From the NCBI RefSeq assembly GCF_011290685.1, contig NZ_JAANYN010000006.1:248001-312000 (forward strand): a stretch of DNA of 64,000 nucleotides, read 5' to 3'. The translations under genes were made by a program, and so were the position numbers. The stretch is from Cyclobacterium plantarum. Lineage in GTDB: Bacteria > Bacteroidota > Bacteroidia > Cytophagales > Cyclobacteriaceae. This document shows positions 4,882 to 23,619 of the stretch, piece after piece. The notes under the pieces were generated by a model, which saw nothing but the letters and a program-made list of their open reading frames with translations, was not told where the DNA came from and ran no database searches. The number at the start of each line of letters is the position of its first letter. Within the stretch, counting starts at the first letter, position 1.

Positions 4882-7800
4882 ATGAAAAAATCTAATCAGA
4901 TTGCTGATTTTTATCTAGGTCGGGGTTTACAAAACGAGAACTTTGAAAAAACAATACTTTTGGCGGAAAGATTGACCGGCTGTGAGCAGGTTTTTTTAGG
5001 TTTTTTTGACAAAGAAGGCATATGGATAAAATCATTTTCTGAGGGGATAAGAGAAACATACATTTCTGAAAAAGACACTTTGTATAATTTTTTAAATAGC
5101 AGCAAAGGTTTTCAGGAAATAAGGGATCTCCAAACCAACAAAGCATTGGCTCAAAGTGATTTTCTGGCAAAAGTCTCCCCGGCTACCTACCTGGCTTCAA
5201 AGCCGATAACCAGTGAAAAAGAAAATATTTTAGGGTTTTTGGTTGTAATGGGGTCAAAAGCACCTGAATCCGCTGACCTTCTGTCAGAAAACTTAGGTCT
5301 TTTGAACCTGCAAATCCGTGAGTACATAAATGCAAAAACTGAAAATTTTGAGGACCGGCTTTTAAGCAAAGCCCTGGGCATTTCCCTGGATTTGATTACG
5401 GTCATCAGGTTTGATGGAAAGTTTATTAAAGTCAATAAAGCATTCAAAACCTTGCTGGGCTATGGTGAGGAAGAGCTTTCGGAGAAGGCCATGTCAGATT
5501 ACATACATCCCAAGGATGTGGAAGGCACTATGGTGGAGATCAACAAACTGATCAAAGGAGAAGCGACCACAAGTTTCAGGCACCGGTTAAAAACCCACAA
5601 AGGTGGCTATAAAACTTTTGCCTGGACGGCTACAGGTGACTTAAAAAACAAATGGATTTTCGCTATCGGCAGGGATATCAGTGAAGAACAGGAAAAAGAA
5701 GAAAAGCTACTTTCCAGCGAAGAAAAATTCCGGTCTTTTTTTGAAAACAGCCAGGGTTTGATGCTGACTCATGATCTCAAGGGGAATTTTTTGAGCTTTA
5801 ATAACTATGGAGCAAGGTTGTTGGGGTACAGTGTCGAGGAGATGCTGTCGAAAAAATTATGGGACATTATCCCAAAAAGGTACCATCCCGAAATTGACAG
5901 CTACTTCAAAGAACTGCTTCAAGATGGAAAAGCCCAGGGCCTGATGACCACCAGGCAGACCAATGGAAGCTTGAAGGTCTGGTTGTACAGCAACACCCTT
6001 GAAAAAGATTATCAGGGTAATAGTTACGTTATCGGAAATTCCATAGATATTACCGAAAGACTCAGGTTGGAAAGAAGCATACAGAATGCCAAAGAATTGC
6101 TCAGCCAAACTCATAGGATGGCAAAAATTGGGGGTTGGAAATACGACACCGACAAAAACTTTTTAAGTTGGACAGATATAACCAAAACCATTTTTGAGGT
6201 TGATGCAGATTTTAATCCAAAACTGGAAGATGCGTTTGGGTTTTACAAGGAAGGTTTTTACCGGGATAGAATGCAAGAACTTTTTGGGCTTGCAAAGGAT
6301 TATGGAAAAGCCTGGGATGAAAAATTAAAAATCATCACCGCAAAAGGCAAAGAATTATGGGTGAGGACCATCGGTGAAGCCCACATAGAAGAAGGTAAAT
6401 GCCTCTACCTTTTTGGAACAATTCAGGACATTCATGACACGGTGAACAGGGAAAACCAGTTGATCCAAAAAGAACAGATGCTTTTGGCGATCTCCAGAGC
6501 CACTGATGAGTTGCTTTCGAATAGAAATTTATATGAAGCCATTTCCAATAGTCTGGAATTGATCGGAAAAGCTGCGGATGTAGACAGGGTCTATTATTGG
6601 GAAAACAGCTTTGCTGAAGACGGCTCAGTGCTCACCTCCCAAAGATTTGAGTGGAGTTCTGATGAAGTGCAGCCCCAAATCAATAACCCAGACTTACAAA
6701 ACGTGCCCATCAATTTTTTCGGGGAATTTGTCGCACCCATGGAGAACAATGAAATTTTCTTTGCCATTTTATCCAAAATGCCGGAAGATTCCTCCACCCG
6801 TGAATTTCTGGCAAATCAGAATATCAAATCCATACTTTCCATACCCATATTTACCAAAGACGGATTTTGGGGTTTCATCGGATATGACGATTGCAAGTTG
6901 GAAAGGGAATGGTCGCAAGCTGAAATTTCTTTATTAAAAAGTTTTGCCAACAGCATCTCCAATGCAATCGACAGAAACATTCTTGAAAAAAACCTTATAG
7001 AATCGAAGGAAATGGCTGAAAAAGCCAGTCTCGCAAAATCAGAGTTTTTGGCCAACATGAGTCATGAGATCAGGACTCCGCTTAATGGCATCATTGGATT
7101 TACAGACCTTTTGTTGAAAACAGACCTGACTGAGGTTCAAAACCAATACATTGATATCGTTAACCAATCTGCCAATACTTTGTTGAATATCATCAATGAC
7201 ATCCTGGACTTCTCTAAAATTGAGGCGGGAAAACTGGAATTGGATATCAACAAAGCAGACATTTTCGTATTGGCGGGGCAGGCAACTGATGTTGTTTCTT
7301 ACCAGGCCCAGAATAAGGGTGTCGAAATGTTGCTTAATCTGGAAAAAGACCTGCCCAGATTTATATTTATAGATGATGTACGGCTAAAACAAATTCTTAT
7401 CAACCTACTTGGGAATGCCGTAAAATTCACCAATGAGGGAGAAATCGAATTAAAAATACAAACCATTTCCGTTCAAAATGAAAAAGAGCGACTGGTAAGA
7501 TTTGAAGTCAGGGATACGGGTATAGGGATATCTGAGGAAAACCAAAAAAGGATTTTTGAAGCATTTGCACAAGAAGACGGATCTACCACTAAAAAATATG
7601 GTGGTACCGGTTTGGGCCTGACCATTTCCAATAAACTTTTGGCCATGATGGGTTCAGAATTAAAACTGGAAAGTAAATTGGATGAGGGCAGTAAATTCTA
7701 TTTTGACATCAACCTCAAAACAGAAAATGGAAGTAATCTTAAAAAATCAGATACCAGTTTTATCCAAAAAGTTTTAGTGGTAGATGACAATGAAAATAAC

Positions 7801-8979
7801 CGATTGATCCTGAAGGAAATGTTTTCTCTGAAAAAAATTCATATGGAGGAAGCAGTGAATGGTTTTGACGCACTTCAAAAAATAGAGAACAATGGTGATT
7901 TTGATGCGGTATTAATGGATCTTAACATGCCTTATATGGATGGTTTGGAAACGACAAAAAAAATAAGGGAAAATTTCCCGGAAAACAAGGCTGCCACTCC
8001 CGTTATGCTCTTACACAGTTCGGCTGATGACGATTACATCTATACAAAATGTAAAGCACTTGGTATCGATATCAAACTATCCAAACCTATAAAAATAAAT
8101 GCGCTTTACGAAGCGCTGGCTCAACTCAACCCTAGAAAAAAGACTTTCACTAAAGATTCATCTCCCGCCCATCAGGAAAAGCCCTTAAACAGCAAACTGA
8201 CAGTACTTATTGCAGAAGACAACGCCATCAACATGTTTTTGGCCAAAACCATTGTACTTAAAGTGTCTCCCAATACTAAAATCTTAGAAGCCATTGATGG
8301 AAAAACAGCAGTTGAAATGGCCCAATCCTTCCTGCCTGATATCATCTTAATGGACATCCAAATGCCGGTCATGAGTGGGCATGAAGCAACCAAAAAAATC
8401 AAAGCTTCACCAGAACTTAGTCACATACCCATTGTCGCCATCACCGCAGGGAATATTAAGGGAGAAAGGGAAAAATGTATGGAATCGGGAATGGTCGATT
8501 TTGTAGCCAAACCCATTGTGGAAAAAAACATTATCCAGATATTTGAAAAATGGTTAAATCCTGTTCATTCGTTACAGGCACCTGACAATAAATCCGCTGC
8601 TAAGGCTGAACAAAAAAATACATCAACAACGACTAAAAACCCAAAAAATCATTTTAATGTTGAAAAAGTCATCGAATACCTTGGAGACGAGCCCTTGGTT
8701 ATCAAAGACGTGTTGAAATTGACACTAAAGGAGCTGGACCATTCAAAAAATTTATTGATCAAACACTTTAATGACCAAAACTTACCGGGATTAAACAGCG
8801 AAGGACACAAATTGAAGGGATCGGCCCTGACAGCAGGATTAAATCAATTGTATGAAATGGCAGTAACCTTCGAAGAGCTGGATTCTTTTGAATCCGGCGG
8901 ATTAAAGAAGTTGTTCGAGGATTTTTCGAAAGAAATTGAAACGGTAAAAGAATTGATCAATCAGTACATCAAGGATTAG
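4882..8979 (+). CDS. hybrid sensor histidine kinase (GAF-PAS-PAS-PAS-GAF-HisKA-HATPase-REC-REC-Hpt)
   Basis: A 1365-residue multidomain phosphorelay kinase with no membrane segment or signal peptide, so it should sense a cytosolic or diffusible cue. Order: an N-terminal GAF-like region (about 10-155), three PAS domains (about 165-280, 285-400, 405-515), a second GAF (about 535-690), HisKA with phospho-acceptor His728 (MSHEIRTPLNG), an ATPase domain with N box near 843 and G boxes DTGIGIS and GGTGLGL (near 876 and 906), a first receiver (Asp1013 in LMDLNMP), a second receiver (Asp1158 in LMDIQMP) and a C-terminal Hpt domain with His1309 (GHKLKGSA). All phospho-transfer residues are intact. The gene converges on a LytTR regulator 17 bases away. 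Confidence 0.93.
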   Translation: MKKSNQIADFYLGRGLQNENFEKTILLAERLTGCEQVFLGFFDKEGIWIKSFSEGIRETYISEKDTLYNFLNSSKGFQEIRDLQTNKALAQSDFLAKVSPATYLASKPITSEKENILGFLVVMGSKAPESADLLSENLGLLNLQIREYINAKTENFEDRLLSKALGISLDLITVIRFDGKFIKVNKAFKTLLGYGEEELSEKAMSDYIHPKDVEGTMVEINKLIKGEATTSFRHRLKTHKGGYKTFAWTATGDLKNKWIFAIGRDISEEQEKEEKLLSSEEKFRSFFENSQGLMLTHDLKGNFLSFNNYGARLLGYSVEEMLSKKLWDIIPKRYHPEIDSYFKELLQDGKAQGLMTTRQTNGSLKVWLYSNTLEKDYQGNSYVIGNSIDITERLRLERSIQNAKELLSQTHRMAKIGGWKYDTDKNFLSWTDITKTIFEVDADFNPKLEDAFGFYKEGFYRDRMQELFGLAKDYGKAWDEKLKIITAKGKELWVRTIGEAHIEEGKCLYLFGTIQDIHDTVNRENQLIQKEQMLLAISRATDELLSNRNLYEAISNSLELIGKAADVDRVYYWENSFAEDGSVLTSQRFEWSSDEVQPQINNPDLQNVPINFFGEFVAPMENNEIFFAILSKMPEDSSTREFLANQNIKSILSIPIFTKDGFWGFIGYDDCKLEREWSQAEISLLKSFANSISNAIDRNILEKNLIESKEMAEKASLAKSEFLANMSHEIRTPLNGIIGFTDLLLKTDLTEVQNQYIDIVNQSANTLLNIINDILDFSKIEAGKLELDINKADIFVLAGQATDVVSYQAQNKGVEMLLNLEKDLPRFIFIDDVRLKQILINLLGNAVKFTNEGEIELKIQTISVQNEKERLVRFEVRDTGIGISEENQKRIFEAFAQEDGSTTKKYGGTGLGLTISNKLLAMMGSELKLESKLDEGSKFYFDINLKTENGSNLKKSDTSFIQKVLVVDDNENNRLILKEMFSLKKIHMEEAVNGFDALQKIENNGDFDAVLMDLNMPYMDGLETTKKIRENFPENKAATPVMLLHSSADDDYIYTKCKALGIDIKLSKPIKINALYEALAQLNPRKKTFTKDSSPAHQEKPLNSKLTVLIAEDNAINMFLAKTIVLKVSPNTKILEAIDGKTAVEMAQSFLPDIILMDIQMPVMSGHEATKKIKASPELSHIPIVAITAGNIKGEREKCMESGMVDFVAKPIVEKNIIQIFEKWLNPVHSLQAPDNKSAAKAEQKNTSTTTKNPKNHFNVEKVIEYLGDEPLVIKDVLKLTLKELDHSKNLLIKHFNDQNLPGLNSEGHKLKGSALTAGLNQLYEMAVTFEELDSFESGGLKKLFEDFSKEIETVKELINQYIKD

Positions 8980-8996: not shown

Positions 8997-9695
8997 TTAC
9001 AGGAAATTAACGCTGTTTTTTAGTTGTTCTTTATATTTGGCACCGATTGGGATGATTTTGCCGTCCACCACAGCCGTATCGCTATCAAAATCAGTTAAAT
9101 AATGCAGGTTGATTACGTAGGAGCGGTGCACTTGTACAAATTCCGGATTACCAGATAACTTGTCCAGGAAGTTGGAAATGGTAGATTTGATGGTATAGGT
9201 TTGTGATTTACACTTCAGGCTGATATAATCCCCTTTTCCCTCGCAGAAGCTTATTTCTGCAAAAAGAATTTTTTTATACAACCGATCATCCTTTACAAAA
9301 ATAAAGTCTTTTGAATAGGCATTGGGGTCTATCCTCGCCTCTGCTTCCTTACATTTATCTATACCTTTAAGAAATTGGGCATAGGCAAAAGGCTTTTGTA
9401 AATAGAAACAGGCATTGGTTTCAAAAGCGGATATGGCATTCTCATGATTTGCCGATATTACGATCAAAGCACCATCATATTGACTGTGCTTAAGAATCTC
9501 AAAACCATTCATTTCAGGCATTTCAATATCCAGAAAAATCAGATCAATATTGCCTTTGTTTTCCACAAGAAAATTCAACCCCTCAATAGAGTCCGTAAAC
9601 TTCGCCTGAAGATCCAAAGATTTGGTCTTGGATATATAATGAGAAAGCACCTCGATGCTGGCAGCATCATCATCTATGATTACACAACGGATCAT
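8997..9695 (-). CDS. LytTR-family response regulator
   Basis: A 232-residue DNA-binding response regulator. The receiver domain (about 1-120) keeps the acidic pair (IIDDD), the phospho-acceptor in FLDIEMPEMNG and the lysine in QKPF; the C-terminal LytTR domain (about 135-230) has the typical 'VQVHRSYVINL' stretch and ends KEQLKNSVNFL. Its usual partner, a 7TM/His_kinase-type membrane sensor, is not next to it; the nearest kinase is the convergent hybrid kinase. It lies 34 bases downstream of an acyltransferase gene on the same strand and may share its transcript. Confidence 0.92.
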   Translation of the reverse strand: MIRCVIIDDDAASIEVLSHYISKTKSLDLQAKFTDSIEGLNFLVENKGNIDLIFLDIEMPEMNGFEILKHSQYDGALIVISANHENAISAFETNACFYLQKPFAYAQFLKGIDKCKEAEARIDPNAYSKDFIFVKDDRLYKKILFAEISFCEGKGDYISLKCKSQTYTIKSTISNFLDKLSGNPEFVQVHRSYVINLHYLTDFDSDTAVVDGKIIPIGAKYKEQLKNSVNFL

Positions 9696-10539: not shown

Positions 10540-11316
10540 ATGAAATTTGTGCTGAAAAAATCAACATTCTACTCCCGCCTGATATTCGTTTTGGTCGTAA
10601 TGATTTTTTTAACTGATAAAAATGTTCGGGCGCAAGAAGAAGTCAATACCCTTGAAGGCATCGAATTGAATAGTCCGCTGGAAAATCAACTTTATAGTTT
10701 AGACAGCCTTATCGGTATAGCCATATCCAATCACCCAACCATCAAACTAAATGAAGCACTTATTGGGTCGGCGGAAGAAAGGGTGAAACTGGCGCAAAAA
10801 TCATGGACGGATTTATTCCGTGTTTATATCGACTATGGATATGGCAATCAGGCCATCCTGACGACCGGATCGCAGGGAGGGGACTTGACCAACATCGCAA
10901 ACGGATACAGGGCAGGGGCCAATCTTAGTATTCCCTTGTCCGAAATTTTCAATAGGGGAAACCGGATCAAACTTCAACAAAATGAAATGGAGGCCACTTT
11001 TTTCAAAACCCGAGAGATGGAATTGGTCATTGCCGAACAGGTCGTGGAAGAATACAACAATCTGCTACTGGCACACCGACTGATGCAAATCAGGTATCAA
11101 ATGCAGGAAAAAGCCAGGACCAACCTGCAACAGATGGAGATGGAGTTTAATTCGGGAAATCTGGATGCCTCCAGCTACATGAGAAATGCAGAAATCCATA
11201 CCGTTGCACAATCTGAATACGAAAATGCAAGGAGGGATTTTTTTGTCGCCACCAAAAAACTCGAAATATTAATCGGACTCCCCTTAGCTAATATCATCCT
11301 TAGAAATGACAATTAA
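10540..11316 (+). CDS. half-length TolC-family outer-membrane protein
   Basis: First gene of the exopolysaccharide operon. A 258-residue exported protein (basic start, hydrophobic stretch about 12-28, cleavage near VRAQ) matching one outer-membrane-efflux repeat: SLIGIAISNHPTIKLNEA at the start of the coiled-coil helices, GYRAGANLSIPLSE strand region, and a long helix with EYENARRDFFVATKKLE. Full TolC homologues have two such repeats and about 420-480 residues, so this is half size. It is not an obvious truncation: its last 11 bases overlap the start of the Wzz-like gene, leaving no remnant. Likely an envelope component of polysaccharide export; no Wza-type OPX protein was seen here. Confidence 0.75.
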   Translation: MKFVLKKSTFYSRLIFVLVVMIFLTDKNVRAQEEVNTLEGIELNSPLENQLYSLDSLIGIAISNHPTIKLNEALIGSAEERVKLAQKSWTDLFRVYIDYGYGNQAILTTGSQGGDLTNIANGYRAGANLSIPLSEIFNRGNRIKLQQNEMEATFFKTREMELVIAEQVVEEYNNLLLAHRLMQIRYQMQEKARTNLQQMEMEFNSGNLDASSYMRNAEIHTVAQSEYENARRDFFVATKKLEILIGLPLANIILRNDN

Positions 11317-13444
11317 ACAATTCATTCTTTTAACTTGGAAAAACAAATTCTTTATTGTGTTGCCACCTATTCTTGCAGCAGTGGGGATCTTCCTTTTGAC
11401 CAGCAATATGCCCAGAGAATATGAAAGCAAAACAATCGTGTTTACCAACCCAAGTTCCAATCAGGGTGCCACAGATGGTGGGGTGGTAAGGATGGATTTT
11501 TACACTTCAAACAATTTATTTGACAACCTTACACTTTTGGTCAAGTCGAGGCAAACTGTAGAAGAAGCCTCCCTTCGGCTGATGGCCCAACACCTTTCCC
11601 TTTCGGGTCCGGAGGAATCGATTATCAGTAGGGGTCCCTATTCCGAACTAAAATCTCATTTCTCCGAAAGAATGTGGGAGGATTTAGCAGTACCTGGTGA
11701 TGAAAAGGAAACATACGCAAATGTAAAAAATCATTATTTAAGTTTCGAAGATTCACCCATTGAATACCTGTTGAGGGAACACGACCATTACGCCATCAGC
11801 AAAATCATTGAGCGCTTGTATGTAAGCAGAAAATCCTCCAGCGACATGATGGAAATCGCATACAGAACCAATGATCCCGGTATTTGTTACCATACGCTCC
11901 GGCTAGTGACCGATGCTTTTACGAGCAGGTATTCGGACATGAAAGAAATGGAAAACATCAATTCCATCACCTACTTTCAAAATCAACTGGTGATTGCGCA
12001 GAACAAATTGAGAGCGGCGGAGGAAAACCTCAAATCCTTCATGACCCAAAACCGGATATTGAATTATTATGAACAGGGCAAATACCTGGATATCGCCAAA
12101 TTAGAGCATGAGCAAGACGAAGAAAGATCCAAACGTCTGCTTTCAGGCACTGAGGCCAATCTGAATGAAATCGAAAATATGTTTGAGAATTTCGAAAAAA
12201 GGCAGGTAATCATTCAACGGATAGGTACCCTTCAGGATCGCATTGTTTCTAAAAACATGGAGATTCAGGGTCTTGCAGCCCAGAATGCAGGATCCCCCCG
12301 AATAGATATGCTGGAAGAAGAAATCGAAAACCTAAAAAACCAAATCGATGAAGCCTCCTCCGAATTGTTTCAAAATAGCAATACCCAAAACGGACTACAG
12401 CGGGAGACCATCCTTGAAGAATGGCTTCGGTTAAAGATTTTATTTGAGGAGCAGAAACAAGCCCTGGATGTCATGCAAAACAGGAAATTATACCTGTCCG
12501 AAAAGATTGAGGAATTTGCACCGCTGGGAGCGGAATTGAAGAAATTGGAAAGAGAGGTCAGTGTAAACGAGGAGCAGTATCTATCCATTCTTCACGGGCT
12601 GAATATGGCCTATTTAAAAAAATATGACCTGGAAATGTCCTCCTCTCAAAGGTTGATCGATGAACCATTTTTCCCAAAAACCCCCCTGCCTTCAAAAAGA
12701 GCATTATTGACGCTGGGTGGGGGAATGGCCACTGGTTTTATCATGTTCTCCCTGGTTTTGCTTACTTTTTTTCTGGACAATACCATAAAATCTGGTCCAA
12801 ATGCAGAAAAAATGACTGGATTAAAGGTGGCCGGCGCCTGGCTCGACGAAAACCGAATAGAAAATACAGTCGACCAACACAAATTGGCCCAAAAAGAAAT
12901 CATTCAATTTCACAATAACCTGAACAAATACCTTCCCAAAACGGGAAAAAAAATCATTTTGTTTTACAGTTTAAAACCCGCAGAAGGCAAAACGTATTTG
13001 ATTAAAAAGTTGGTGCAGGACCTTGAGAAGCAAAACAGGGAGGTGATGTATTGGGGCATGAAAGAGGATACCGGGAAGATGCCCTGTGCCAGCATGGCTT
13101 ACCCGGGTTTAACGAGCATTCAGGGCAATTTTGAGCAGTATTGGTCAAACAAAATTTCCCAAACTGAGGAGGAGTTCATATTATGGGAATTGCCCAATAT
13201 TTCAGAAGCACCCCTCAACTACTCCCTGATCAATCAGGCGAATGCCCTGGTGATGGTATTGGATGCCGAGCGCAAATGGAATCAGGCAGATCTTCATTTA
13301 CTCAATAATTTAAAGGAAATGGTAGAAGTACCCCACCTGATCTGGCTCAATAAAATGAAAAGTGATGAATTGGAAGACATTATCGGAGAAATACCCAAGA
13401 AAAGATCATTCATACGCTCAAAAGTAAAAAAACTGCTTTCCTGA
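11306..13444 (+). CDS. Wzz/Wzc-like polysaccharide co-polymerase with degenerate tyrosine-kinase domain
   Basis: A 712-residue inner-membrane protein governing polysaccharide chain length and export. It has an N-terminal membrane helix (about 15-33), a Wzz domain, a long periplasmic coiled-coil with GNVR-like part (about 220-450), a second membrane helix (about 462-490), and a cytoplasmic domain (about 530-712) homologous to BY-kinases. The P-loop survives as KPAEGKT (Lys562), but the Walker A' strand reads MYWGMKED and the Walker B region ILWELPN, both without the expected aspartates. The protein ends KVKKLLS with no tyrosine cluster, so kinase activity is doubtful. Overlaps the TolC-like gene by 11 bases. 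Confidence 0.85.
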   Translation: MTIKQFILLTWKNKFFIVLPPILAAVGIFLLTSNMPREYESKTIVFTNPSSNQGATDGGVVRMDFYTSNNLFDNLTLLVKSRQTVEEASLRLMAQHLSLSGPEESIISRGPYSELKSHFSERMWEDLAVPGDEKETYANVKNHYLSFEDSPIEYLLREHDHYAISKIIERLYVSRKSSSDMMEIAYRTNDPGICYHTLRLVTDAFTSRYSDMKEMENINSITYFQNQLVIAQNKLRAAEENLKSFMTQNRILNYYEQGKYLDIAKLEHEQDEERSKRLLSGTEANLNEIENMFENFEKRQVIIQRIGTLQDRIVSKNMEIQGLAAQNAGSPRIDMLEEEIENLKNQIDEASSELFQNSNTQNGLQRETILEEWLRLKILFEEQKQALDVMQNRKLYLSEKIEEFAPLGAELKKLEREVSVNEEQYLSILHGLNMAYLKKYDLEMSSSQRLIDEPFFPKTPLPSKRALLTLGGGMATGFIMFSLVLLTFFLDNTIKSGPNAEKMTGLKVAGAWLDENRIENTVDQHKLAQKEIIQFHNNLNKYLPKTGKKIILFYSLKPAEGKTYLIKKLVQDLEKQNREVMYWGMKEDTGKMPCASMAYPGLTSIQGNFEQYWSNKISQTEEEFILWELPNISEAPLNYSLINQANALVMVLDAERKWNQADLHLLNNLKEMVEVPHLIWLNKMKSDELEDIIGEIPKKRSFIRSKVKKLLS

Positions 13445-13463
13445 TAAACTCAAGGATCATTAC

Positions 13464-14894
13464 ATGGATTATTCCCGTTACCCTATAGGCATACCCCTCA
13501 CAGGACTCGTCCTTGCCCTGCTGATCAGCCTTATTGTGGCCTATACAGGGATTTTGGGAGTTGGTGCACTGACCATACTGCCTTTTGCAGCCCTGCTGTT
13601 TCTTTTCATGTTGAGTCACCCCAACAAAGCTCTTATCGTTGCCCTGGTATTTGCTTTTGTTTCCATTGGAGCCAGCCGGTATATACCCAGCCTGCCTTTG
13701 GGCCTTTCGGTGGATTTTGCGTTGGTAGCCGTAATATTAAGTGCCTTGTTTCATACAAAAGTAAAAACAGACTTTCGCTACCTGAAAAACAGCCTTTTTG
13801 GCGTCACGCTGCTGTGGATGATGTATAACATAGCGGAGCTTTTCAACCCTGAGGCCAGAAGTGTTACTGCCTGGGTCTATGCTGTACGGGGAACGGCTTT
13901 GTACATGTTGCTTACAGTCCCCCTCACACTACTTTATGCGCATAAAAGAAAAGACCTGGACCGGCTGATCAAAATCATACTATTGTTTTCCATACTCGCT
14001 TCATTCTGGGGCCTCAGACAATACTACATAGGTTTGGATGGAGCAGAAAATCGCTGGCTGGATGCAGGTTCAAGATCCACCCATGTCCTTTTTGGGAACC
14101 TCAGGGTTTTTAGTTTCTTTTCGGACGCAGGCCAGTTCGGTGCAGGCATTGCTCATTCGGGAATGATTGCCCTTGTTTTGGCACTGGGACCTTTTACGCT
14201 GAAAAAGCGCATTTTCTTTGCCCTTTGTGCGCTGTTGTTTTTTTATCTAATGATCATGAGTGGCACCAGAGGAGCTTTAATGGTCCCGGTGGCAGGTACG
14301 CTGGCTTACCTTTTTGCATCAAAAAACTTTAAGTTAATGACCCTTGGTCTGGCTAGCCTCGCAATAGTCTTTGTATTTTTAAAATTCACTTCCATAGGTA
14401 ATGATGTTTACCAAATAAGGAGATTAAGGTCTGCTTTGGACCCAAATGATGCTTCACTCAATGTAAGATTAGCCAACAAGGCGAAATTTTCCGAATACCT
14501 GAAAACCAGGCCATTTGGAGGTGGAATAGGTACTTCTGGTTTTTGGGGGCAAAGATTCAGTCCTGGTACTTTTCTGGCAGAAACCCCCAATGACAGCTGG
14601 TTCATTAAAATCTGGGCAGAAATGGGAGTCGTTGGGCTTTCACTACATGTATCCATACTCGCATTCATCGCATTAATGGCTTTATTTAAAATCTGGAAGG
14701 TTGAAAACCCCCAACTCAAACAAAAATTGCTGGGATTGTTTGCCGGCTATGTGGGGATTGCAGCTGCATCTATCGGAAATCCTTTACTGGGACAAATGCC
14801 TACCGGTTTGATACTTTACATGTCCTGGGCCTATTTTTTCCTGGCAGAGGATCTTGATAAGGAAAACAACAAAGAAATAATGAATAATGAATAA
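13464..14894 (+). CDS. O-antigen ligase/polymerase family membrane protein
   Basis: A 476-residue polytopic protein with about ten to twelve membrane helices and the Wzy_C/O-antigen ligase signature region: a large loop after GLRQYYIGLDG and the motif MSGTRGALMVP, followed by RPFGGGIGTSGF and a late periplasmic loop ETPNDSWFIKIWAEMG. Family members either polymerise undecaprenyl-linked repeat units (Wzy) or ligate them (WaaL); inside an operon with a flippase and a Wzz-like protein the polymerase role is the better inference. It starts 19 bases after the Wzz-like gene and overlaps the next gene by 8 bases. Confidence 0.85.
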   Translation: MDYSRYPIGIPLTGLVLALLISLIVAYTGILGVGALTILPFAALLFLFMLSHPNKALIVALVFAFVSIGASRYIPSLPLGLSVDFALVAVILSALFHTKVKTDFRYLKNSLFGVTLLWMMYNIAELFNPEARSVTAWVYAVRGTALYMLLTVPLTLLYAHKRKDLDRLIKIILLFSILASFWGLRQYYIGLDGAENRWLDAGSRSTHVLFGNLRVFSFFSDAGQFGAGIAHSGMIALVLALGPFTLKKRIFFALCALLFFYLMIMSGTRGALMVPVAGTLAYLFASKNFKLMTLGLASLAIVFVFLKFTSIGNDVYQIRRLRSALDPNDASLNVRLANKAKFSEYLKTRPFGGGIGTSGFWGQRFSPGTFLAETPNDSWFIKIWAEMGVVGLSLHVSILAFIALMALFKIWKVENPQLKQKLLGLFAGYVGIAAASIGNPLLGQMPTGLILYMSWAYFFLAEDLDKENNKEIMNNE

Positions 14895-15801
14895 ACCGTT
14901 AATTTCTGTCATCACCATTAACTTCAATGGCCTGGTACACACCCTGGATTTTTTGGCTTCATTTCAAAAAGTGAGCTATCCCAATGTAGAAATCATAGTG
15001 GTGGACAATGCTTCAACTGAAGATCCTGAGGAAATACATACAAAATTCCCAAATACCATTCTGGTAAAAAACCCAGTTAACGAGGGATTCGCCGGAGGAA
15101 ATAACCGGGGAATGGAGAATGCAAAAGGAGACTATTTCTTTCTGATTAACAATGACACTGAGGTCGCCCCGGACATCCTGGATGTGCTTTTACAACGTAT
15201 TCAGCAAGAAGAAAATGCCGGATTGGTCTGTCCTAAAATCCTTTATCATGACGCCCCGGACACCATTCAATATGCCGGTTTCTCTGCCATAAACCCCATT
15301 ACAGGGCGTGGCAAGGGCAAGGGTTACCAGGAAAAAGATACAGGGCAATACCAAAAAGCGGAAATCACCCAGCTGGCTCATGGAGCAGCCATGTTTATCC
15401 CTAAAAGGGTGGTACTTGACATAGGCATGATGGCCGAACTCTATTTTCTTTATTACGAAGAAATGGACTATTGTGAGCGCATAAAAAATGCCGGGTATGA
15501 GATTTGGTACGAACCCGGGAGTTTTATTTTGCACAAGGAATCCATGAGCGTGGGTAAAAACTCCTTGCTAAAAACTTACTACATGAGTCGGAACAGGTGG
15601 TTGTTTTTGAGAAGAAATGTAAACTGGCCCTTGTTTTTTTTTACAGCAGCTTATTACCTGCTGGTTGCCCTGCCAAAAAACCTGCTGGTTTTTGCCCTGC
15701 AGGCAGAGTGGTCTCATTTTAAAAAATATTTCAAAGGTTTTTCAGACGGGTTGTTCATGAAGCATATCCGGGAAGACCCCGCACTTAAGCATCAGTCATG
15801 A
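14887..15801 (+). CDS. GT2 glycosyltransferase (rhamnosyltransferase-like)
   Basis: A 304-residue cytosolic GT-A enzyme: VITINFNG nucleotide-binding strand, VVDNASTED, GFAGGNNRG and LINNDTEV (DxD-like metal site), then YYEEMDYCERIKNAGY (catalytic-base region) and a short amphipathic or hydrophobic C-terminal segment (FFTAAYYLLVALP). The pattern is that of WbbL/RfbF-type enzymes that add deoxyhexoses such as rhamnose to lipid-linked repeat units. It overlaps the preceding polymerase gene by 8 bases and shares an ATGA with the following gene, so it is translationally coupled on both sides. Donor sugar is inference only. Confidence 0.88.
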   Translation: MNKPLISVITINFNGLVHTLDFLASFQKVSYPNVEIIVVDNASTEDPEEIHTKFPNTILVKNPVNEGFAGGNNRGMENAKGDYFFLINNDTEVAPDILDVLLQRIQQEENAGLVCPKILYHDAPDTIQYAGFSAINPITGRGKGKGYQEKDTGQYQKAEITQLAHGAAMFIPKRVVLDIGMMAELYFLYYEEMDYCERIKNAGYEIWYEPGSFILHKESMSVGKNSLLKTYYMSRNRWLFLRRNVNWPLFFFTAAYYLLVALPKNLLVFALQAEWSHFKKYFKGFSDGLFMKHIREDPALKHQS

Positions 15802-16931
15802 GAATAGGTATAGAAGCACAACGGATTTTCAGAAAAAAAAGGCATGGGATGGACATGGTAGCCATTGCACTCATTCGAAATCTGCAAAAAATGGATACCA
15901 GCAACCAATACTTTATTTTTGTCAATGAAGTGGAGGATACTTCCCCGATCAGTCCCACGGAAAATTTCACCATAGTACCCCTTACACCTTCTCCCTACCC
16001 TGTCTGGGAACAATATCATTTGGCAAGAGCAGTGAAAACCTATCAGCTGGACCTTCTCCATTGTACCAGCAACACTGCACCTATTTCCTGCAAGGCTAAA
16101 CTGGTCATCACTTTACATGATATCATCTATCTCGAAAAATTGAATTTTAGAGAAGGTTCCTGGTACCAAAGAATGGGCAACCTTTACCGCCGCTGGAACG
16201 TGCCAAAAGTCGTGAAAAAAGCCTCTTGCTTGTTTACTGTTTCACGCTACGAACAAGAGCGGATCGTAAGGCAATTTGGCATGCAGCCAGAAAAGGTCAA
16301 AGTGGTATACAACGGAGTGGCCGGACATTTCAAAAGAGAAAGCCCCGAAAAAAGAAAGGTAATCCAAAAGAAGTATGGATTGCCGGATACATTTATGTTG
16401 TTCCTGGGCAATACAGATCCCAAAAAAAACCTCAAAGGAGTATTGAAAAGCCTCGCCTTGCTGGAGGAAAAAAAAGTTGATTTTCCTGATTTGGTCATGC
16501 CTGATTTTGGAAAAGATGTTTTGATATTGATGCTAAAGGCCATAAACTCCCCTCAGCTGATCCATAAAATCCACCTGACGGGCTATATACCCAATGAAGA
16601 TCTTCCTTCCATTTATAGCCAGGCGTTGCTCTTCTTATACCCTTCCCTCAGGGAAAGTTTTGGCTTGCCCATACTGGAAGCCATGGCTTGTGGCTGTCCG
16701 GTCATCACTTCCAACACCTCCTCTATGCCTGAAGTAGCCGGAGAGGCCGCTTTGCTGATTGATCCCTTTGATCCGGAAAGTTTGAGCAAAGGAATAGCAT
16801 CCCTGCTTGAAAACCGGGAAAAAAGGCAAAAACTTATAGAAAGGGGATATAAGAGACCACAATTATTTGACTACCAAAAGGGTGCGAAAGAAACCCTGCT
16901 CAGCTATACCCAAATCCTGAAACAGGAATGA
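15798..16931 (+). CDS. GT4 family glycosyltransferase
   Basis: A 377-residue GT-B enzyme. The N-terminal half starts MRIGIEAQRIF and carries a HDIIYLEK segment; the C-terminal Rossmann domain starts FLGNTDPKKNLKG and has the retaining-enzyme signature ESFGLPILE (Glu286 and Glu294, EX7E) followed by MACGCPVI. These enzymes use nucleotide sugars to build the lipid-linked repeat unit. Start and stop overlap both neighbours by four bases (ATGA), so it is a central member of the plus-strand polysaccharide operon. Specific sugar unknown. Confidence 0.9.
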   Translation: MRIGIEAQRIFRKKRHGMDMVAIALIRNLQKMDTSNQYFIFVNEVEDTSPISPTENFTIVPLTPSPYPVWEQYHLARAVKTYQLDLLHCTSNTAPISCKAKLVITLHDIIYLEKLNFREGSWYQRMGNLYRRWNVPKVVKKASCLFTVSRYEQERIVRQFGMQPEKVKVVYNGVAGHFKRESPEKRKVIQKKYGLPDTFMLFLGNTDPKKNLKGVLKSLALLEEKKVDFPDLVMPDFGKDVLILMLKAINSPQLIHKIHLTGYIPNEDLPSIYSQALLFLYPSLRESFGLPILEAMACGCPVITSNTSSMPEVAGEAALLIDPFDPESLSKGIASLLENREKRQKLIERGYKRPQLFDYQKGAKETLLSYTQILKQE

Positions 16932-18265
16932 AGGATAAAAAATATTGGCTCAGCAGTGGATTTTATACCATGATGCACAGGGGCGTGGATTTTTTGCTTG
17001 GCTTCATTGGTTTCATGTTATTGGTTAGGATCATTTCTCCGGAAGATTTCGGGGTTTGGGTTTTGCTTACCACCATTGTATCCATCATTGATATGGCCAG
17101 GAACGGCTTTATTCAAAATGGTTTGATCAAATATTTTGTTGGAAAAAACCCAGGCGTTCAGGCCAAAATCCAAACAGCAGCCATTTGGTTGAATACCTCA
17201 CTTAGCATATTGATTTTTTTAATTATCTGGCTGCTTGCTTCCCCTTTGGCAAAGCTATTGAATGCTCCGGATTTGGCAGAAATCCTTATCATTTATTCCT
17301 GGGTGATTCCCGTATTGGTATTTCACACCCATAACCTGGTGCTGATGCAGGCCAGTTATGATTTCAAAGCTTACTTCTTTGCAGGAATCAGCAAAAGTTT
17401 GCCCTTTTTTCTGGTAATTCTATTGGCTTACATGAACTTCTTTGAACTAAGCCTCAAGTCTCTGGCCTGGTACCAAAATGGAGCCTTTTTACTGGCCTCT
17501 CTGATGTCTGCCTATCAGGTACGAAAATATTTCAGCCTCCGGTCGAAGGTCCGTCCCTATTGGCTGATCAAGTTATTTCACTTCGGGAAATACGTTTTTG
17601 GTACCAACCTCGTTTCCATGCTTACCAACAGCCTGGATAAATTTTTGCTCGGAGCCCTTCTTTCTCCTGTTCAGGTGGCCATGGCCAATACGGCTGGCCG
17701 GGTGATGAACATGGTTGAAATCCCCGTGAATTCCATTGCCTCCATCAGCTATCCCAAAGCGGCAGAAGCTCACGACAAAAAGGATTCGGAGGAGGTTGGT
17801 CGGCTCTATGAAAAAACTTTAGGGATGATGTTGGCCCTTACGGTACCATTTTGGCTATTTTGTCTTGTATTTGCGCATTATATCATATTATTTATCGCAG
17901 GGGAATCCTATTTGAACGCAGTCCCATTTTTAAGGATCATGGTATTCCTGGCCCTGATCAAACCCTTCGACAGGCAGTCCGGAGTATTTCTGGACGCCAT
18001 AGGCAAGCCCTTCTACAATATGATCATGGTTTTTGGTACCTTCGTTTACGGGGTAGGTTTAAGCTGGTTATTTATCCAATGGACCGGCTTGCAGGGAGCA
18101 GCATATGGATTGGTAATCTCCATTTTTATCACTGTTTTAATCAAAAACTTCATACTTTCAAGATACATCGATATCCATATTTGGGCTTGCTGGGCACAGG
18201 CTGCAAAAAATTATCTCAGGGCATTTGAAGAGGCGAAGAAAAGGATCGGTAAAAAGCTGCATTAA
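16928..18265 (+). CDS. Wzx-type oligosaccharide flippase
   Basis: A 445-residue polytopic membrane protein of the polysaccharide transporter (MOP) superfamily, with about 12-14 helices spread through its length and the family-typical start YTMMHRGVDFLLGFIGFMLLVRIISPEDFGVW. It would flip the undecaprenyl-linked repeat unit across the inner membrane for the polymerase encoded upstream. It is the last gene of the plus-strand operon and overlaps its predecessor by four bases. Its stop is 2 bases from the stop of a convergent glycosyltransferase, with no terminator hairpin visible between. Confidence 0.9.
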   Translation: MKDKKYWLSSGFYTMMHRGVDFLLGFIGFMLLVRIISPEDFGVWVLLTTIVSIIDMARNGFIQNGLIKYFVGKNPGVQAKIQTAAIWLNTSLSILIFLIIWLLASPLAKLLNAPDLAEILIIYSWVIPVLVFHTHNLVLMQASYDFKAYFFAGISKSLPFFLVILLAYMNFFELSLKSLAWYQNGAFLLASLMSAYQVRKYFSLRSKVRPYWLIKLFHFGKYVFGTNLVSMLTNSLDKFLLGALLSPVQVAMANTAGRVMNMVEIPVNSIASISYPKAAEAHDKKDSEEVGRLYEKTLGMMLALTVPFWLFCLVFAHYIILFIAGESYLNAVPFLRIMVFLALIKPFDRQSGVFLDAIGKPFYNMIMVFGTFVYGVGLSWLFIQWTGLQGAAYGLVISIFITVLIKNFILSRYIDIHIWACWAQAAKNYLRAFEEAKKRIGKKLH

Positions 18266-18267
18266 TA

Positions 18268-19497
18268 TCATTCCCATCTCTTTTTAAGGTGATGAAACTC
18301 ACCTTTGCGCTTGGCCCATAAAGGCTCAATATCAATGACCTCGTTATGCGAAGTAGCCATAAAATCTTTATTAGCCTTCCGGATATGCAGCATTCCGGAC
18401 AATTGTCCCCATACAAACAAGGGAATTTTTGGAATGGCTTTCAAAACTTTTCCAGGGGTCCTGTTAAAAGTCAGGATTGTTAAAAAGCCCAAAACAAATA
18501 AAAACAAACTGCCTGTAACAAGAAAAAAGTAGGGCCATTTCAACCATAAGGCAAAAATCGCCAGCACAAGACCAGCCCCAACCAGCATGACCATTGGAGG
18601 CATGGAGACCATCAGGGCAAAATATAGCAAATTCCAATCCCACTTGGTGATTCCCTTCAGTAAAAGCCTCAATGATACCGGAACCTGAGCAAAATAGCTA
18701 TTGAGCCAGCGCCCCCTTTGCCTACCAATCTGTTGGGCAGCTGTGACCTTTTCATCAAAAATAATGGCGGCTGCCGCATAGGCTATTCTATGGCCATTAT
18801 CTACCAATTGAAGTTGCAGTGATTTGTCCTCTGCCACTACTACTCCCTTCTCTTTCAATACCTGCAACTCACGGGATATATTGTCCCGGTAAACTTCCCT
18901 CTCCAGAGACATGCCGGAGCCGGCAATGGTGGAAGAAGAACCGAGTAAATAGGGTACATTTCTAACTGCAAAATCGTAATAATACTCGCCCAATGCATCC
19001 AGTGCGGCATAGGTTCCCTTAATATTTTTGGCAATTCTCTTTCCCTGAACCGCCTTAAACCCCATGGCATGATACTGGTTGATCACACTTAAAAAATGAG
19101 CAGGAACCAGGTTATCCGGATCGAAGACCACTACATGGGTATGATTTGCCTTCATTGAATTCAGGGCCAGGTCCAAAGAAGCCACCTTGCTGTGTAAAAA
19201 AATTTCGGGTTGCAGGATGCTTAATCTTTCATCTGAAACAGGAACCTCCAATGGATCCATGATCCCATCGGCTACCAGATAAATGTGAAAATCAGGGTAA
19301 TCCTGTTTCAACAGGGAACGGACCAGGGGCCAGGCGATTTCACCCTCTTTGTATAGGGTTATCACACAAGCAAAATTTGCGGAAAAACCGGGGTCAGGAT
19401 CCATCTTTTCTTTCCTGAAAACTGCCGCCATGGCACTGATCAGGGGAAACAGGAGATAAAAACAGCATATCCAGGTAATTATTTCAAACAGCACCAA
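18268..19497 (-). CDS. membrane GT2 glycosyltransferase, QxxRW type
   Basis: A 409-residue family-2 enzyme with an N-terminal helix (about 5-25), a GT-A core (VITLYKEGE, LVADGIMD, VVFDPDNLV metal site, AEDKSLQLQL catalytic acid) and the acceptor motif QRGRW of processive or membrane GT2 enzymes, then two to three C-terminal helices (about 290-350). There is no ATG in a suitable place: the frame opens with TTG at 19497 or GTG at 19494 after an in-frame stop 21 bases upstream. It is a single minus-strand gene within the polysaccharide locus, convergent with the flippase. Confidence 0.82.
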   Translation of the reverse strand: MVLFEIITWICCFYLLFPLISAMAAVFRKEKMDPDPGFSANFACVITLYKEGEIAWPLVRSLLKQDYPDFHIYLVADGIMDPLEVPVSDERLSILQPEIFLHSKVASLDLALNSMKANHTHVVVFDPDNLVPAHFLSVINQYHAMGFKAVQGKRIAKNIKGTYAALDALGEYYYDFAVRNVPYLLGSSSTIAGSGMSLEREVYRDNISRELQVLKEKGVVVAEDKSLQLQLVDNGHRIAYAAAAIIFDEKVTAAQQIGRQRGRWLNSYFAQVPVSLRLLLKGITKWDWNLLYFALMVSMPPMVMLVGAGLVLAIFALWLKWPYFFLVTGSLFLFVLGFLTILTFNRTPGKVLKAIPKIPLFVWGQLSGMLHIRKANKDFMATSHNEVIDIEPLWAKRKGEFHHLKKRWE

Positions 19498-19584: not shown

Positions 19585-20823
19585 ATGAATAATTTTTCAA
19601 TTTCCAGTCTAAAACAACTCCCTATAGTAATGACCAGTATGTCCAGGTGGGACGGTGATTTTTCTTCTGCCTCCTGGTCGCTGGCCAAAACCTTCTCCCG
19701 GGACCAGGTGGTATTGTATGTTGATTATCCTTTTACCCTTTTGGATTATTTCAGGGAAAGAAAAAAGAAGGCGATAAGACTTAGAAAACCAGCTTTACTT
19801 TGGGGCAAAAATAATTTAAAACCTTTACCGGAATATGGCACCTATCTATATGCGCTAACCCCGCCATTGATGCTGCCTATCAATTGGCTGCCCGAGGGGA
19901 TGATTTATGGTTTTCTGGCAAGGTGGAATGACAGGCGACTGGCCAAAAGCATAAAAAAAGGCTTGAAAAGGTTAAAATTAGAAGATTTCATATTTTTCAA
20001 CTCCTTTAATCCACTTTACCTGAGCCAACTGCCCAAAAATTTCAAGCCCAGGGTGATTGTATACCAATCAAGAGACAATATCCGGGCTTTGGAACCTTAT
20101 TTGAGAAAGCATGGGGCAGGAAATGAAATTAAGGCCATCCGTAATGCGGATATCAGCCTGGCCACTTCCCGGCAATTACAGGAAGACCTGCAGATTCTTT
20201 CCAAAAAAAATGTGGCTTATTTTCCCAATGCTGCAGATTTCAACCTGTTTAAATCCGCTTATGAAACAAAGCTTTCTTTACCAGACGACCTTCAAAATAT
20301 TCCTTCCCCTATCATTGGATATACCGGCAACATCTGCCACAGGCAGGATTATGATCTGATAGCCTATATCTGTGCTTCAAATCCAGAAATCAGCCTGGTA
20401 TTGGTCGGACCCAGGAACCATCAGGGGCATACCCATATTGACCTTGATAAGATTCCGAACCTGTACTTTACCGGACCAAAAGGAATCGAGCAATTACCCC
20501 AATACCTGGCTCATTTTGACCTTTTGATTTTACCCTTTTTATGCAATGAAGTGACCAGGAGCATCTACCCACTTAAAATAAATGAATACCTGGCCTCCGG
20601 CAAACCTATCGTAGCTACACCTTTTTCTGAGGATATACGTTCCTTCTATCCCCTGATCAGACTTGAAAATGACCCGGAAAGCTTTGCCCTGGCCATTAAG
20701 CAGGAACTTGAATCCGACAATCCTGATAAAGCCGAAAAAAGATATGTGGAGGCTTCCAAAAACACCTGGGAAGGAAGGGTAGCTCTTTTTTGGAAATTAC
20801 TGGATCAGACATTTTCGCTCTGA
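19585..20823 (+). CDS. GT-B glycosyltransferase (TuaH-like)
   Basis: A 412-residue protein opening with a strand typical of teichuronate TuaH-like and related enzymes (IVMTSMSRWDGDFSSASW), then YQSRDN and a C-terminal nucleotide-sugar binding half with IGYTGNI, LVLVGP, YFTGPKG and the acidic signature region INEYLASGKPIVATPF. No membrane segments. The ATG at 19585 is divergent from the GT2 gene at 19497. The last 19 bases overlap the 3' end of the convergent sugar transferase gene. It belongs with the exopolysaccharide assembly genes; donor and acceptor unknown. Confidence 0.83.
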   Translation: MNNFSISSLKQLPIVMTSMSRWDGDFSSASWSLAKTFSRDQVVLYVDYPFTLLDYFRERKKKAIRLRKPALLWGKNNLKPLPEYGTYLYALTPPLMLPINWLPEGMIYGFLARWNDRRLAKSIKKGLKRLKLEDFIFFNSFNPLYLSQLPKNFKPRVIVYQSRDNIRALEPYLRKHGAGNEIKAIRNADISLATSRQLQEDLQILSKKNVAYFPNAADFNLFKSAYETKLSLPDDLQNIPSPIIGYTGNICHRQDYDLIAYICASNPEISLVLVGPRNHQGHTHIDLDKIPNLYFTGPKGIEQLPQYLAHFDLLILPFLCNEVTRSIYPLKINEYLASGKPIVATPFSEDIRSFYPLIRLENDPESFALAIKQELESDNPDKAEKRYVEASKNTWEGRVALFWKLLDQTFSL

Positions 20824-22007
20824 AAAAGAGCCGGAATAGTACGCAGCAAAATCTTCAAATCAAACCAAAGGGAGAAATTTTTAACGTAATCATTATCCAG
20901 ACTAAGCCTTTCTTCTTCCGACATTTCCCCTCGTCCCCTTTTTTCAACCTGCCAGAGGCCTGTAATTCCTGCCGGCCCCAAAAAACGGAGGGCATATTTA
21001 TCCGTGGTTATTTTTTCAGCTTCATACAAAGGGAGGGGGCGATTTCCTACCAGTGACATATCACCTTTAAGTACATTCCAAAGCTGTGGTAACTCATCGA
21101 TGCTGGTATTTCGAATGAATTTCCCAATCCTGGTAACACGGGGATCATCTTTTATTTTGATAAAGGCGGAATCTTGATTGCTGTTCTTTTTGGCCAAAAT
21201 GATTTTTTCACATACCATTTGGTTATCGTCATAAAGGGGTTGCAAGCATCCCCCTCCCGCTTGTTCACATAATTCACAAAGTTCTTTAACCGCTGTGGTT
21301 TCTGTTGCTGGTATGCTTTCTTCGTCTGCCGATTTCTCCGGATGGTTGTATTGGTTAAGGTGCTTGAGTTGTTGAAGTTTGGCATCGGCATCGGGATCCA
21401 TGGACCGGAATTTGTAGAATTTAAAAATCGTATAGCCCGTACCTACCCGGTAAGAATAATAAAATACCGGACCTCTTGATTCCAGTTTGATTAAAATAGA
21501 AACGATTAAAAACAAGGGGCTCAATGCAAATAAAATCAACCCTGAAACAAAAACATCAAACAATCTCTTCAACCAGGGAATACTGTAGGGCTCAACCCGG
21601 GTGATTTCTGTATCTTTCAGCCTTTTGATCGGATGGTTGATTTGGAATTCCAGCCTGGTCTTTAACTTTTTTTTATTGATAGGCTTGGTAAAAATATCCG
21701 CAACACCTTTACCGATGGCTTTGAGGATTTCTTCCCTGTTGACTTTTTCCATAATGAGGAAAAAAGGCAGGTATCCAAACCCCAGTTTTTCCATGGTTTT
21801 TTTTAAAGAAAGGCCATGAACATCCTGCAAGGCAGCATCACTCAGCACCAGACAAAATTCTTTTGGAGATTGGGCAAGATGGTTATAAAAAACGATCCCA
21901 TTGGAAAAGCTGACTATCTCAAATTTATCCTCCACTGCCTGAATCACCGATTCAATTAACTGCTTACTTTCGGAAATCAGCGCAATTTTAAGAAAATGAT
22001 CAGCCAT
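20805..22007 (-). CDS. receiver-domain / polyprenyl-phosphate sugar transferase fusion
   Basis: About 400 residues from the ATG at 22007 (a TTG six codons upstream is less likely). Residues 1-125 form a receiver-like domain: Asp57 (VLSDAAL) and Lys108 (FTKP) are kept, but the acidic pair is Ser12-Glu13 and the usual Thr/Ser is Met86. Residues 145-400 are a WcaJ/PglC-type sugar transferase that loads the first sugar-1-phosphate onto undecaprenyl phosphate: membrane hairpin 146-175, KFRSMDPDAD, DPRVTRIG, IDELPQLWNVLKGDMSL. Between these last motifs lies an enlarged insert with Cys244, 247, 254 and 266. It overlaps the upstream receiver gene by 8 bases. Confidence 0.88.
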   Translation of the reverse strand: MADHFLKIALISESKQLIESVIQAVEDKFEIVSFSNGIVFYNHLAQSPKEFCLVLSDAALQDVHGLSLKKTMEKLGFGYLPFFLIMEKVNREEILKAIGKGVADIFTKPINKKKLKTRLEFQINHPIKRLKDTEITRVEPYSIPWLKRLFDVFVSGLILFALSPLFLIVSILIKLESRGPVFYYSYRVGTGYTIFKFYKFRSMDPDADAKLQQLKHLNQYNHPEKSADEESIPATETTAVKELCELCEQAGGGCLQPLYDDNQMVCEKIILAKKNSNQDSAFIKIKDDPRVTRIGKFIRNTSIDELPQLWNVLKGDMSLVGNRPLPLYEAEKITTDKYALRFLGPAGITGLWQVEKRGRGEMSEEERLSLDNDYVKNFSLWFDLKILLRTIPALFQSENV

Positions 22008-22407
22008 TGATAGATTCCATTGCAAGTTTTCCCGACCTCCTTAAAATGGAATTGATCCTTGCCTCAAGCTCTTTTGGATTAAAAGGTTTCACCATGAAAT
22101 CGTCTGCTCCCAGATTCAAAATGTCAATCTTTTTTTCAGATGACTCAGTAGCGGATAGGACGATCAATGGTATCTCGGCAAAAAAGCCACTGGAACGAAT
22201 AAACTCAACAAATTCAGACCCGTTGATATCGGGCATATTCAAATCACAAATGATAATATCGGGCAGGTTACCTTCATGCATGACGGCGATAGCGTCTGCC
22301 GGTTTACTAAAAACCTTTACGTCAAATTTTTCCTTGAAATAATGTTGAATGATAAGCAAAACTGAAGGCTCATCATCAATGGCAAATAATCTATACCCGC
22401 TTTTCAT
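22000..22407 (-). CDS. single-domain (CheY-like) response regulator
   Basis: About 135 residues, consisting only of a receiver domain from the ATG at 22407 (MKSGYRLFAIDDEP); a GTG 12 codons upstream is a weaker start. All receiver residues are present: acidic pair in AIDDEP, phospho-acceptor in ICDLNMPDING, Ser in LSATE and Lys in VKPF. No output domain. Its stop overlaps the start of the receiver/sugar-transferase fusion gene (ATGGCTGA), so the two are probably translationally coupled and may work together in controlling the start of polysaccharide synthesis. Confidence 0.92.
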   Translation of the reverse strand: MKSGYRLFAIDDEPSVLLIIQHYFKEKFDVKVFSKPADAIAVMHEGNLPDIIICDLNMPDINGSEFVEFIRSSGFFAEIPLIVLSATESSEKKIDILNLGADDFMVKPFNPKELEARINSILRRSGKLAMESING

Positions 22408-22671: not shown

Positions 22672-23619
22672 TCAATACCCTCCTTCTTTCAATACCTGGT
22701 CGAAGTACCTGATCGTTTCTTTCAAACCTTCTTTCAATTGAATTTTAGGTTCCCAACCCAGTTCTTTTTTGGCCAGATCAATATTGGGTTTTCGCTGCAT
22801 GGGGTCATCCTGAGGTAAGGGTAGGAATTTCAGCTTACTTTTTGATCCGGTAAGTTCCAAAACGTTTTCAGCCAGCTCCAACATGGTAAATTCCACGGGG
22901 TTACCAATGTTTACCGGGCCTATAAAACCTTCACGGCTGTTCATTAATTTGTGCATGCCGGAAATCAAATCACTCACGTAGCCAAAACTTCTGGTCTGTT
23001 TACCATCTCCAAAAATGGTAATGTCCTCTCCTTTCAGTGCCTGTACAATAAAATTGCTCACTACCCTTCCGTCGGAAGGGTGCATTCTGGGGCCATAGGT
23101 ATTAAAAATACGCATCACCTTGATACTTAACTTTTGCTGCCGGTGGTAGTCAAAAAACAAGGTCTCAGCACACCTCTTGCCTTCGTCATAACAGGCTCGG
23201 GGTCCGGTCACACTTACACTGCCCTTATAGGATTCCGGCTGAGGATGGATTTCCGGATCGCCATACACTTCACTGGTGCTGGCCTGCAAAATCCTTACTT
23301 TCAATCTCTTAGCCAGACCCAACATGTTGATGGCACCCAATACGCTGGTCTTGGTCGTTTGAACGGGGTCAAACTGATAGTGGACCGGGCTGGCGGGACA
23401 TGCAAGGTTGTATATTTGATCCACCTCAACATACAATGGAAGAGTAACATCATGCCTTAGAAATTCAAAATTTTTATTGTCCAGCAGATGGTGAATATTT
23501 CTTCTTCTTCCGGTAAAAAGGTTGTCCGCACACAAAACTTCATTCCCTTCACTTAAGAGTTTGTCACAAAGGTGGCTGCCCAAAAAACCAGCTCCACCGG
23601 TTACTAAAATCCTCTTCAT
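22672..23619 (-). CDS. UDP-glucuronate decarboxylase (UDP-xylose synthase)
   Basis: A 315-residue extended short-chain dehydrogenase that oxidises and decarboxylates UDP-glucuronate to UDP-xylose. N-terminal NAD site [12 protein letters not shown] (GxxGxxG), STSEVYGDP, and the catalytic YDEGK (Tyr144, Lys148) in the context [11 protein letters not shown], which is distinctive of UXS enzymes and unlike GalE. The length fits the soluble UXS family. It follows the polysaccharide locus on the minus strand and pairs functionally with the UDP-glucose dehydrogenase gene at 61599-62996, which would supply its substrate. Confidence 0.93.

Follow-up and report, generated by a model that had tools for sequence, protein, structure and literature searches.

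The window, a 64,000-nucleotide stretch of Cyclobacterium plantarum DNA, contains an exopolysaccharide (EPS) locus in which the stop of a single-domain response regulator (SD-RR) gene overlaps the start of a gene for a small monotopic phosphoglycosyl transferase (PGT) with a fused, degenerate receiver domain. The SD-RR and the fused PGT form a conserved module and are not an artefact. We propose, with a probability of about 0.6, that the two proteins constitute a switch on the first step of EPS synthesis, in which the phosphorylated SD-RR (SD-RR~P) acts via the fused pseudo-receiver. The module consists of the following features.

22000..22407, minus strand: SD-RR, 135 aa, with D11, D12, D55, S85 and K107 present
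20805..22007, minus strand: pseudo-receiver plus small monotopic PGT, 400 aa
21633..21995, minus strand: fused receiver-fold domain, aa 5-125, with S12-E13, D57 (21837-21839), M86 and K108
20808..21575, minus strand: catalytic part of the PGT, with a long helix of the re-entrant type (aa 145-176) and the catalytic Asp304-Glu305 (21098-21093)
21210..21278, minus strand: four-cysteine insert C244-x2-C247-x6-C254-x11-C266 within the PGT domain
22000..22007, minus strand: 8-nt overlap of the SD-RR stop and the PGT start (ATGGCTGA)

The product of 20805..22007 is a small monotopic PGT (monoPGT; PF02397) with a Bac_transf score over the cut-off, the Asp-Glu dyad and a PglC-like fold. It lacks the N-terminal TM bundle and DUF of the large monoPGTs: the structure model has no TM bundle and shows a receiver fold at the N-terminus, where no other Pfam family matched at E 0.01. 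We know of no receiver regulation of PglC. The solved 185-residue chain of this Campylobacter small monoPGT (8e37) aligns to the catalytic part of the window PGT only. The four-cysteine insert (CxxC-x6-C-x11-C) is possibly metal-binding. An insert pattern of this type was found in 131 of the 329 distinct PGTs of the module; a regular expression for insert types was set aside because some of its matches extended over the N-domain. In other PGTs of the module its place is taken by a run of acidic residues or by a short loop, and the insert is also present in short PGTs without an SD-RR (L447-L450).

PGT homologues, counted whether or not they have the N-domain, were detected in at least 69 of 396 genomes of the class, at least 140 of 295 genomes of the window's family and at least 108 of 244 genomes of another family, and, with other alignments, in at least 22 of 151 genomes of a third family and at least 24 of 296 genomes across the phylum. 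These are lower bounds because the thresholds were strict and the number of candidates considered was capped; the third-family survey, which scored at most 12 candidates per genome, missed two genomes found in the class survey (G165 and G418). Pairing was examined at all loci available at that stage except L001-L007 and L035-L037. A PGT was found at 357 of the 358 loci, 329 of the PGTs were distinct, and the N-domain region was present in 316 of these. The initial annotation had suggested tabulating how often a single-domain receiver gene overlaps such fusions: an SD-RR gene lies upstream on the same strand, ending no more than 600 nt from the PGT start, for 311 of the 316 PGTs with an N-domain. 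The gap is 50 nt or less, or the genes overlap, in 285 of the 311 pairs, and the frames overlap in 97. The commonest spacings are -4 (29 pairs) and -8 (23 pairs), both measured on the longest open frame, which exaggerates the overlap in some pairs (for the window pair it gives -26, as against -8 from the ATG). Under the same criterion, none of 37 other PF02397 loci in this and related genomes, a non-random set, had a receiver upstream. The module was found at 311 distinct loci from Bacteroides to Cyclobacterium, with downstream genes that differ between loci, which disposes of the concern that the fusion might be an assembly artefact missing from relatives. OEP proteins often lie just downstream of the module (34 of the 99 neighbour proteins scanned, out of 111 picked).

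The five N-domain PGTs without an SD-RR are L152 (partly masked), L186, L332, L340 and L347. About 900 bases upstream of the last three contain no receiver, and each of these genomes has a second PGT of the module. L186 (4926-7802, Flexithrix dorotheae) encodes a 958-aa pseudo-receiver PGT fusion with a long N-terminal extension and no adjoining SD-RR. Of the 13 PGTs in which the N-region is short or missing, six have an upstream receiver, two of them apparently as split reading frames. Because L146 and L148 look split and L211 looks like a fragment, the clean cases of an SD-RR with a PGT lacking the fused domain number four in the 329-PGT set (L017, L020, L173 and L185).

The fused domain is a receiver by its (beta-alpha)5 fold and family score (PF00072). 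The receiver fold was seen in the N-domain of the window PGT and also in a divergent member scoring below the receiver HMM, and a profile of the fused domains matched that of the SD-RRs with a probability of 99.7 and an E-value of 3.9e-26. The initial description of an N-terminal receiver overlapping a CheY-like gene was thus correct, and the doubt whether the N-terminus has a receiver fold is answered by the structure model. Its residue reading was also accurate for the window: the acidic pair is partly lost (S12-E13), Met86 replaces Thr/Ser, and Asp57 and Lys108 are kept. With this set the window domain fails the test for a phosphorylatable receiver and fits the definition of a pseudo-receiver, that is, a receiver by sequence and fold with key catalytic residues missing. 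The neighbouring SD-RR, described at the outset as a complete CheY-like protein, indeed has all of D11, D12, D55, S85 and K107 and passes the same test.

A complete phospho-set (two acids, Asp, Ser/Thr and Lys) was found in 276 of the 311 SD-RRs, and the other 35 lack part of it. Several of the eroded SD-RRs have Gly at the second acidic position, and proteins with an eroded set are still paired with a PGT (e.g. L104, L105 and L107). In a tree, the 35 SD-RRs sampled clustered together, separate from 34 other receivers encoded in the C. plantarum genome (SH-aLRT 91). The fused Asp57 is commoner where the SD-RR is eroded (17/35 vs 61/276, Fisher p 0.0015, with kinship ignored). A role swap, in which the fused domain regains the site lost by the SD-RR, was rejected, as the set is otherwise incomplete in every one of these fused domains.

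Contact between the partners was examined by coevolution. Distances among the SD-RRs and among the fused domains correlate more than the PGT core accounts for (partial r 0.38). In a mean-field analysis, 26 pairs of SD-RR and fused-domain positions had couplings above 0.8, vs 2-12 in 16 within-cluster shuffles (5-12 in the eight with tight clusters, which make the fairer comparison, and 2-5 in the eight with looser clusters). The true maximum was 1.41; twelve earlier looser-cluster shuffles gave maxima of 0.59-1.01 and one tight-cluster shuffle reached 1.65. The SD-RR couples to the PGT core about as strongly as to the fused domain. The excess is therefore not clearly above phylogeny, and the data weakly favour a contact between SD-RR and fused domain and single out no interface. 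The alpha4-beta5-alpha5 block, set in advance, held 1 of the top 26 pairs (2.3 expected by area). Charge covariation between SD-RR position 103 and fused position 118 was not detected (p 0.86, 311 pairs), and that between SD-RR position 117 and fused position 104 was, if anything, reversed (acid at 104 in 160 of 176 pairs with a basic residue at 117 and in 134 of 135 without). A classical face-to-face heterodimer through alpha4-beta5-alpha5 is not favoured by the coupling test, in which its block was not enriched; the receiver heterodimers suggested by the initial annotation may still form. A patch of SD-RR alpha3/loop against fused alpha4-beta5-alpha5 held 10 of the top 26 pairs (mean 3.6 and maximum 7 in the 16 shuffles), a weak result as the patch was chosen post hoc from the coupling list.

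The same face bears on how the fused domain is used. An acid at position 104 and a basic residue at 118 (D104 and R118 in the window) occur in 275 of the 311 fused domains; by position we take them to correspond to PhoB D101 and R115, which form a salt bridge between the subunits of the alpha4-beta5-alpha5 dimer. A pair of this type occurs in 9 of 38 other receiver domains of the genome in which both positions are filled. This conservation points to a retained dimerisation or docking face, and, because the matching pair is kept less often in the SD-RRs (163/311), the contact is perhaps between fused domains. Such fused-fused pairing is what one would expect if the pseudo-receivers merely homodimerised the PGT, as a stand-in for the DUF of WbaP/EpsZ, with the SD-RR targeting the catalytic part or some other protein encoded in the locus; the SD-RRs adjoining PGTs without a fused domain also agree with this explanation. 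We nevertheless consider it unlikely, since the N-domain is seldom found without an SD-RR (5/316) and the post hoc patch links the SD-RR to the fused domain.

Less probable still is that the fused receiver is itself phosphorylated at Asp57 and heterodimerises with the SD-RR through alpha4-beta5-alpha5. The genus itself lends this reading some colour: among the nine same-genus sequences listed, Asp57 is kept in seven (Glu in two), Lys108 in nine and Glu13 in eight, so residual phosphorylation of the fused domain may occur there, and the PhoB-like pair at 104/118 would suit such a dimer. Over the whole set, however, Asp57 is missing in 233 of the 311 fused domains (present in 78, with Glu there in 95) and Lys108 in 284 (present in 27). 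The two occur together in 10, and two acids stand at positions 12-13 in 2 and at 13-14 in 12. On these counts a conserved phosphosite at Asp57 was rejected, and phosphorylation of the fused domain, as far as these residues tell, cannot be the basis of the module as a whole; the claim for Asp57 falls as a general feature. The window domain moreover lacks Ser/Thr at position 86, and neither the coupling block nor charge covariation favours the proposed dimer. Single-domain receivers can serve as phosphate sinks. That the pair is a neutral, co-inherited operon whose SD-RR is such a sink or acts on unrelated targets would fit evidence that is wholly genomic, but is very improbable given the recurrence of the pair in many families of the class with overlapping frames and differing downstream genes, the zero of 37 among other PGTs, and the loops 46-49, 73-76 and 109-111, which are conserved in 77 sampled SD-RRs and far less so in 45 other receiver domains of the genome.

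The proposed switch of SD-RR~P and pseudo-receiver PGT would require a phosphodonor. The surrounding locus is organized as follows.

4882..8979, plus strand: hybrid histidine kinase PAS/GAF-HisKA-HATPase-REC-REC-HPt, the candidate phosphodonor
8997-9695, minus strand: LytTR-type response regulator gene adjoining the hybrid kinase
10540..18265, plus strand: EPS export/polymerisation gene block
10540-11316, plus strand: OEP (TolC-type), 258 aa
11306-13444, plus strand: Wzz/Wzc-like co-polymerase, 712 aa
13464-14894, plus strand: Wzy_C protein
14887-15801 and 15798-16931, plus strand: glycosyltransferase-like genes, from sequence reading with no domain scan
16928-18265, plus strand: flippase-like gene, from sequence reading with no domain scan
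18268-19497, minus strand, and 19585-20823, plus strand: glycosyltransferases adjoining the PGT
22672..23619, minus strand: NAD-dependent sugar epimerase/dehydratase upstream of the SD-RR

The hybrid kinase gene sits at the opposite end of the EPS locus from the SD-RR and PGT genes. The order of kinase, OEP, chain-length protein, Wzy, glycosyltransferases, PGT and SD-RR is the same in all seven same-genus genomes taken. The genome of C. plantarum has six PF02397 genes, and only the PGT of 20805..22007 carries a fused receiver. Hybrid kinases of this kind commonly signal through an HPt to a free receiver, and we infer that the 4882-8979 kinase is the donor for the SD-RR. Of six larger loci taken elsewhere in the phylum, three, all from one genus (L454-L456), encode a HisKA-HATPase-REC-HPt kinase directly upstream of an SD-RR and a PGT without a fused domain. 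At L457 a kinase frame lies close by on the opposite strand, and L458 and L459 show none. A motif scan of 80 named loci with flanks of up to 8 kb found a kinase near 13, and therefore the relay is usually not encoded next to the module. The LytTR regulator may form a two-component pair with the hybrid kinase or be a rival target of the relay; its position beside the kinase is also kept in all seven same-genus genomes.

In the mechanism that we infer from gene order and residue patterns, a hybrid kinase/HPt relay would phosphorylate Asp55 of the SD-RR, and SD-RR~P would bind the pseudo-receiver fused to the PGT, possibly contacting the catalytic part too. Binding would alter PGT activity, most likely by activation through a stabilized productive, perhaps dimeric, membrane arrangement; the activating sign is suggested by analogy only. 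The fused receiver would serve as an adaptor that no longer accepts phosphate in most of the family, and the gene overlap would keep the production of SD-RR and PGT joint. Direct phosphorelay control of the priming step, as first suggested for the window, is accordingly retained as the best reading, with EpsW~P/EpsZ as its analogue (PMC12802240, from the available text), but its input moves from the fused Asp57 to the free receiver.

Ten loci outside the class, drawn from the phylum-wide survey, comprise a PGT alone (L447-L450), an SD-RR with a short PGT (L442, L444, L445 and L446), and an SD-RR with a fused PGT whose fused domain scores higher as a receiver (L437 and L438). As loci pairing an SD-RR with a PGT lacking the fused domain exist, the adaptor is not indispensable. 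The series from PGT alone through SD-RR and PGT to SD-RR and pseudo-receiver PGT would be a natural one in which to follow an enzyme acquiring allosteric control. A tree of few columns did not show whether the fused domain arose from a duplicated SD-RR, and decayed remnants of N-domain or SD-RR were not found upstream of 10 short PGTs (best E 0.91). In several genomes of the family (e.g. G661, G745 and G775), short PGTs have an HMM match that runs upstream across stop codons.

More broadly, and tentatively, since we put it at a little under even odds, a His-Asp-His-Asp phosphorelay may gate the initiation of one class of EPS across Bacteroidia, ending on a free receiver that works via the dead receiver domain of the priming transferase. 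Its origin would be distinct from that of the myxobacterial EpsW/EpsZ, and the fused domain would be a former receiver, perhaps the SD-RR itself, turned adaptor. If true, signals would have a general route to EPS flux that bypasses transcription, in which the receiver taking the input is mostly intact and the one attached to the enzyme is degenerate. The initial annotation knew of no characterised system of this arrangement. Within the open-licence literature this stands for the module: the conserved pair of SD-RR and pseudo-receiver PGT, its wide extent, the phosphosite loss on the fused side and the link to a kinase were not found there. It does not stand for the components: control of a PGT by an SD-RR was published in 2025 with the EpsW/EpsZ work, and REC-PGT fusions as such are on record through the 2021 analysis that this work cites (PMC12802240, available text).

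According to the available text of PMC12802240, the SD-RR EpsW of Myxococcus xanthus is phosphorylated by DifE and activates the large monoPGT EpsZ post-translationally. Its Discussion supposes that receivers may regulate monoPGTs in other organisms too, and its abstract and Discussion describe PGTs as competing for scarce undecaprenyl phosphate, the rationing of which by cells is an open question. The Discussion also describes small monoPGTs as functional monomers, so a mechanism based on dimers, like that of EpsZ, may not apply to them. The same source credits a 2021 sequence analysis (O'Toole et al., PNAS) with finding small monoPGTs with receiver domains, the architecture of the window PGT. 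In the review PMC12632262, pseudo-receivers are receivers by sequence and fold in which key catalytic residues are missing; the fused domain fits this description, and heterodimers of pseudo-receivers and receivers are discussed there as a possibility, in an available text that does not use the terms "sugar transferase" or "glycosyl". The window proteins score far below the NCBIfam cut-offs of EpsW (NF041866; 58 of 200 bits) and EpsZ (NF041877; 158.5 of 800 bits). As described in PMC12802240, EpsZ is a large monoPGT with a TM bundle and DUF and no fused receiver, whereas the Cyclobacterium PGT is small, carries a pseudo-receiver and belongs to Bacteroidota. The two systems are alike in the post-translational control of the first step, which for the Cyclobacterium module is proposed from genomic evidence.
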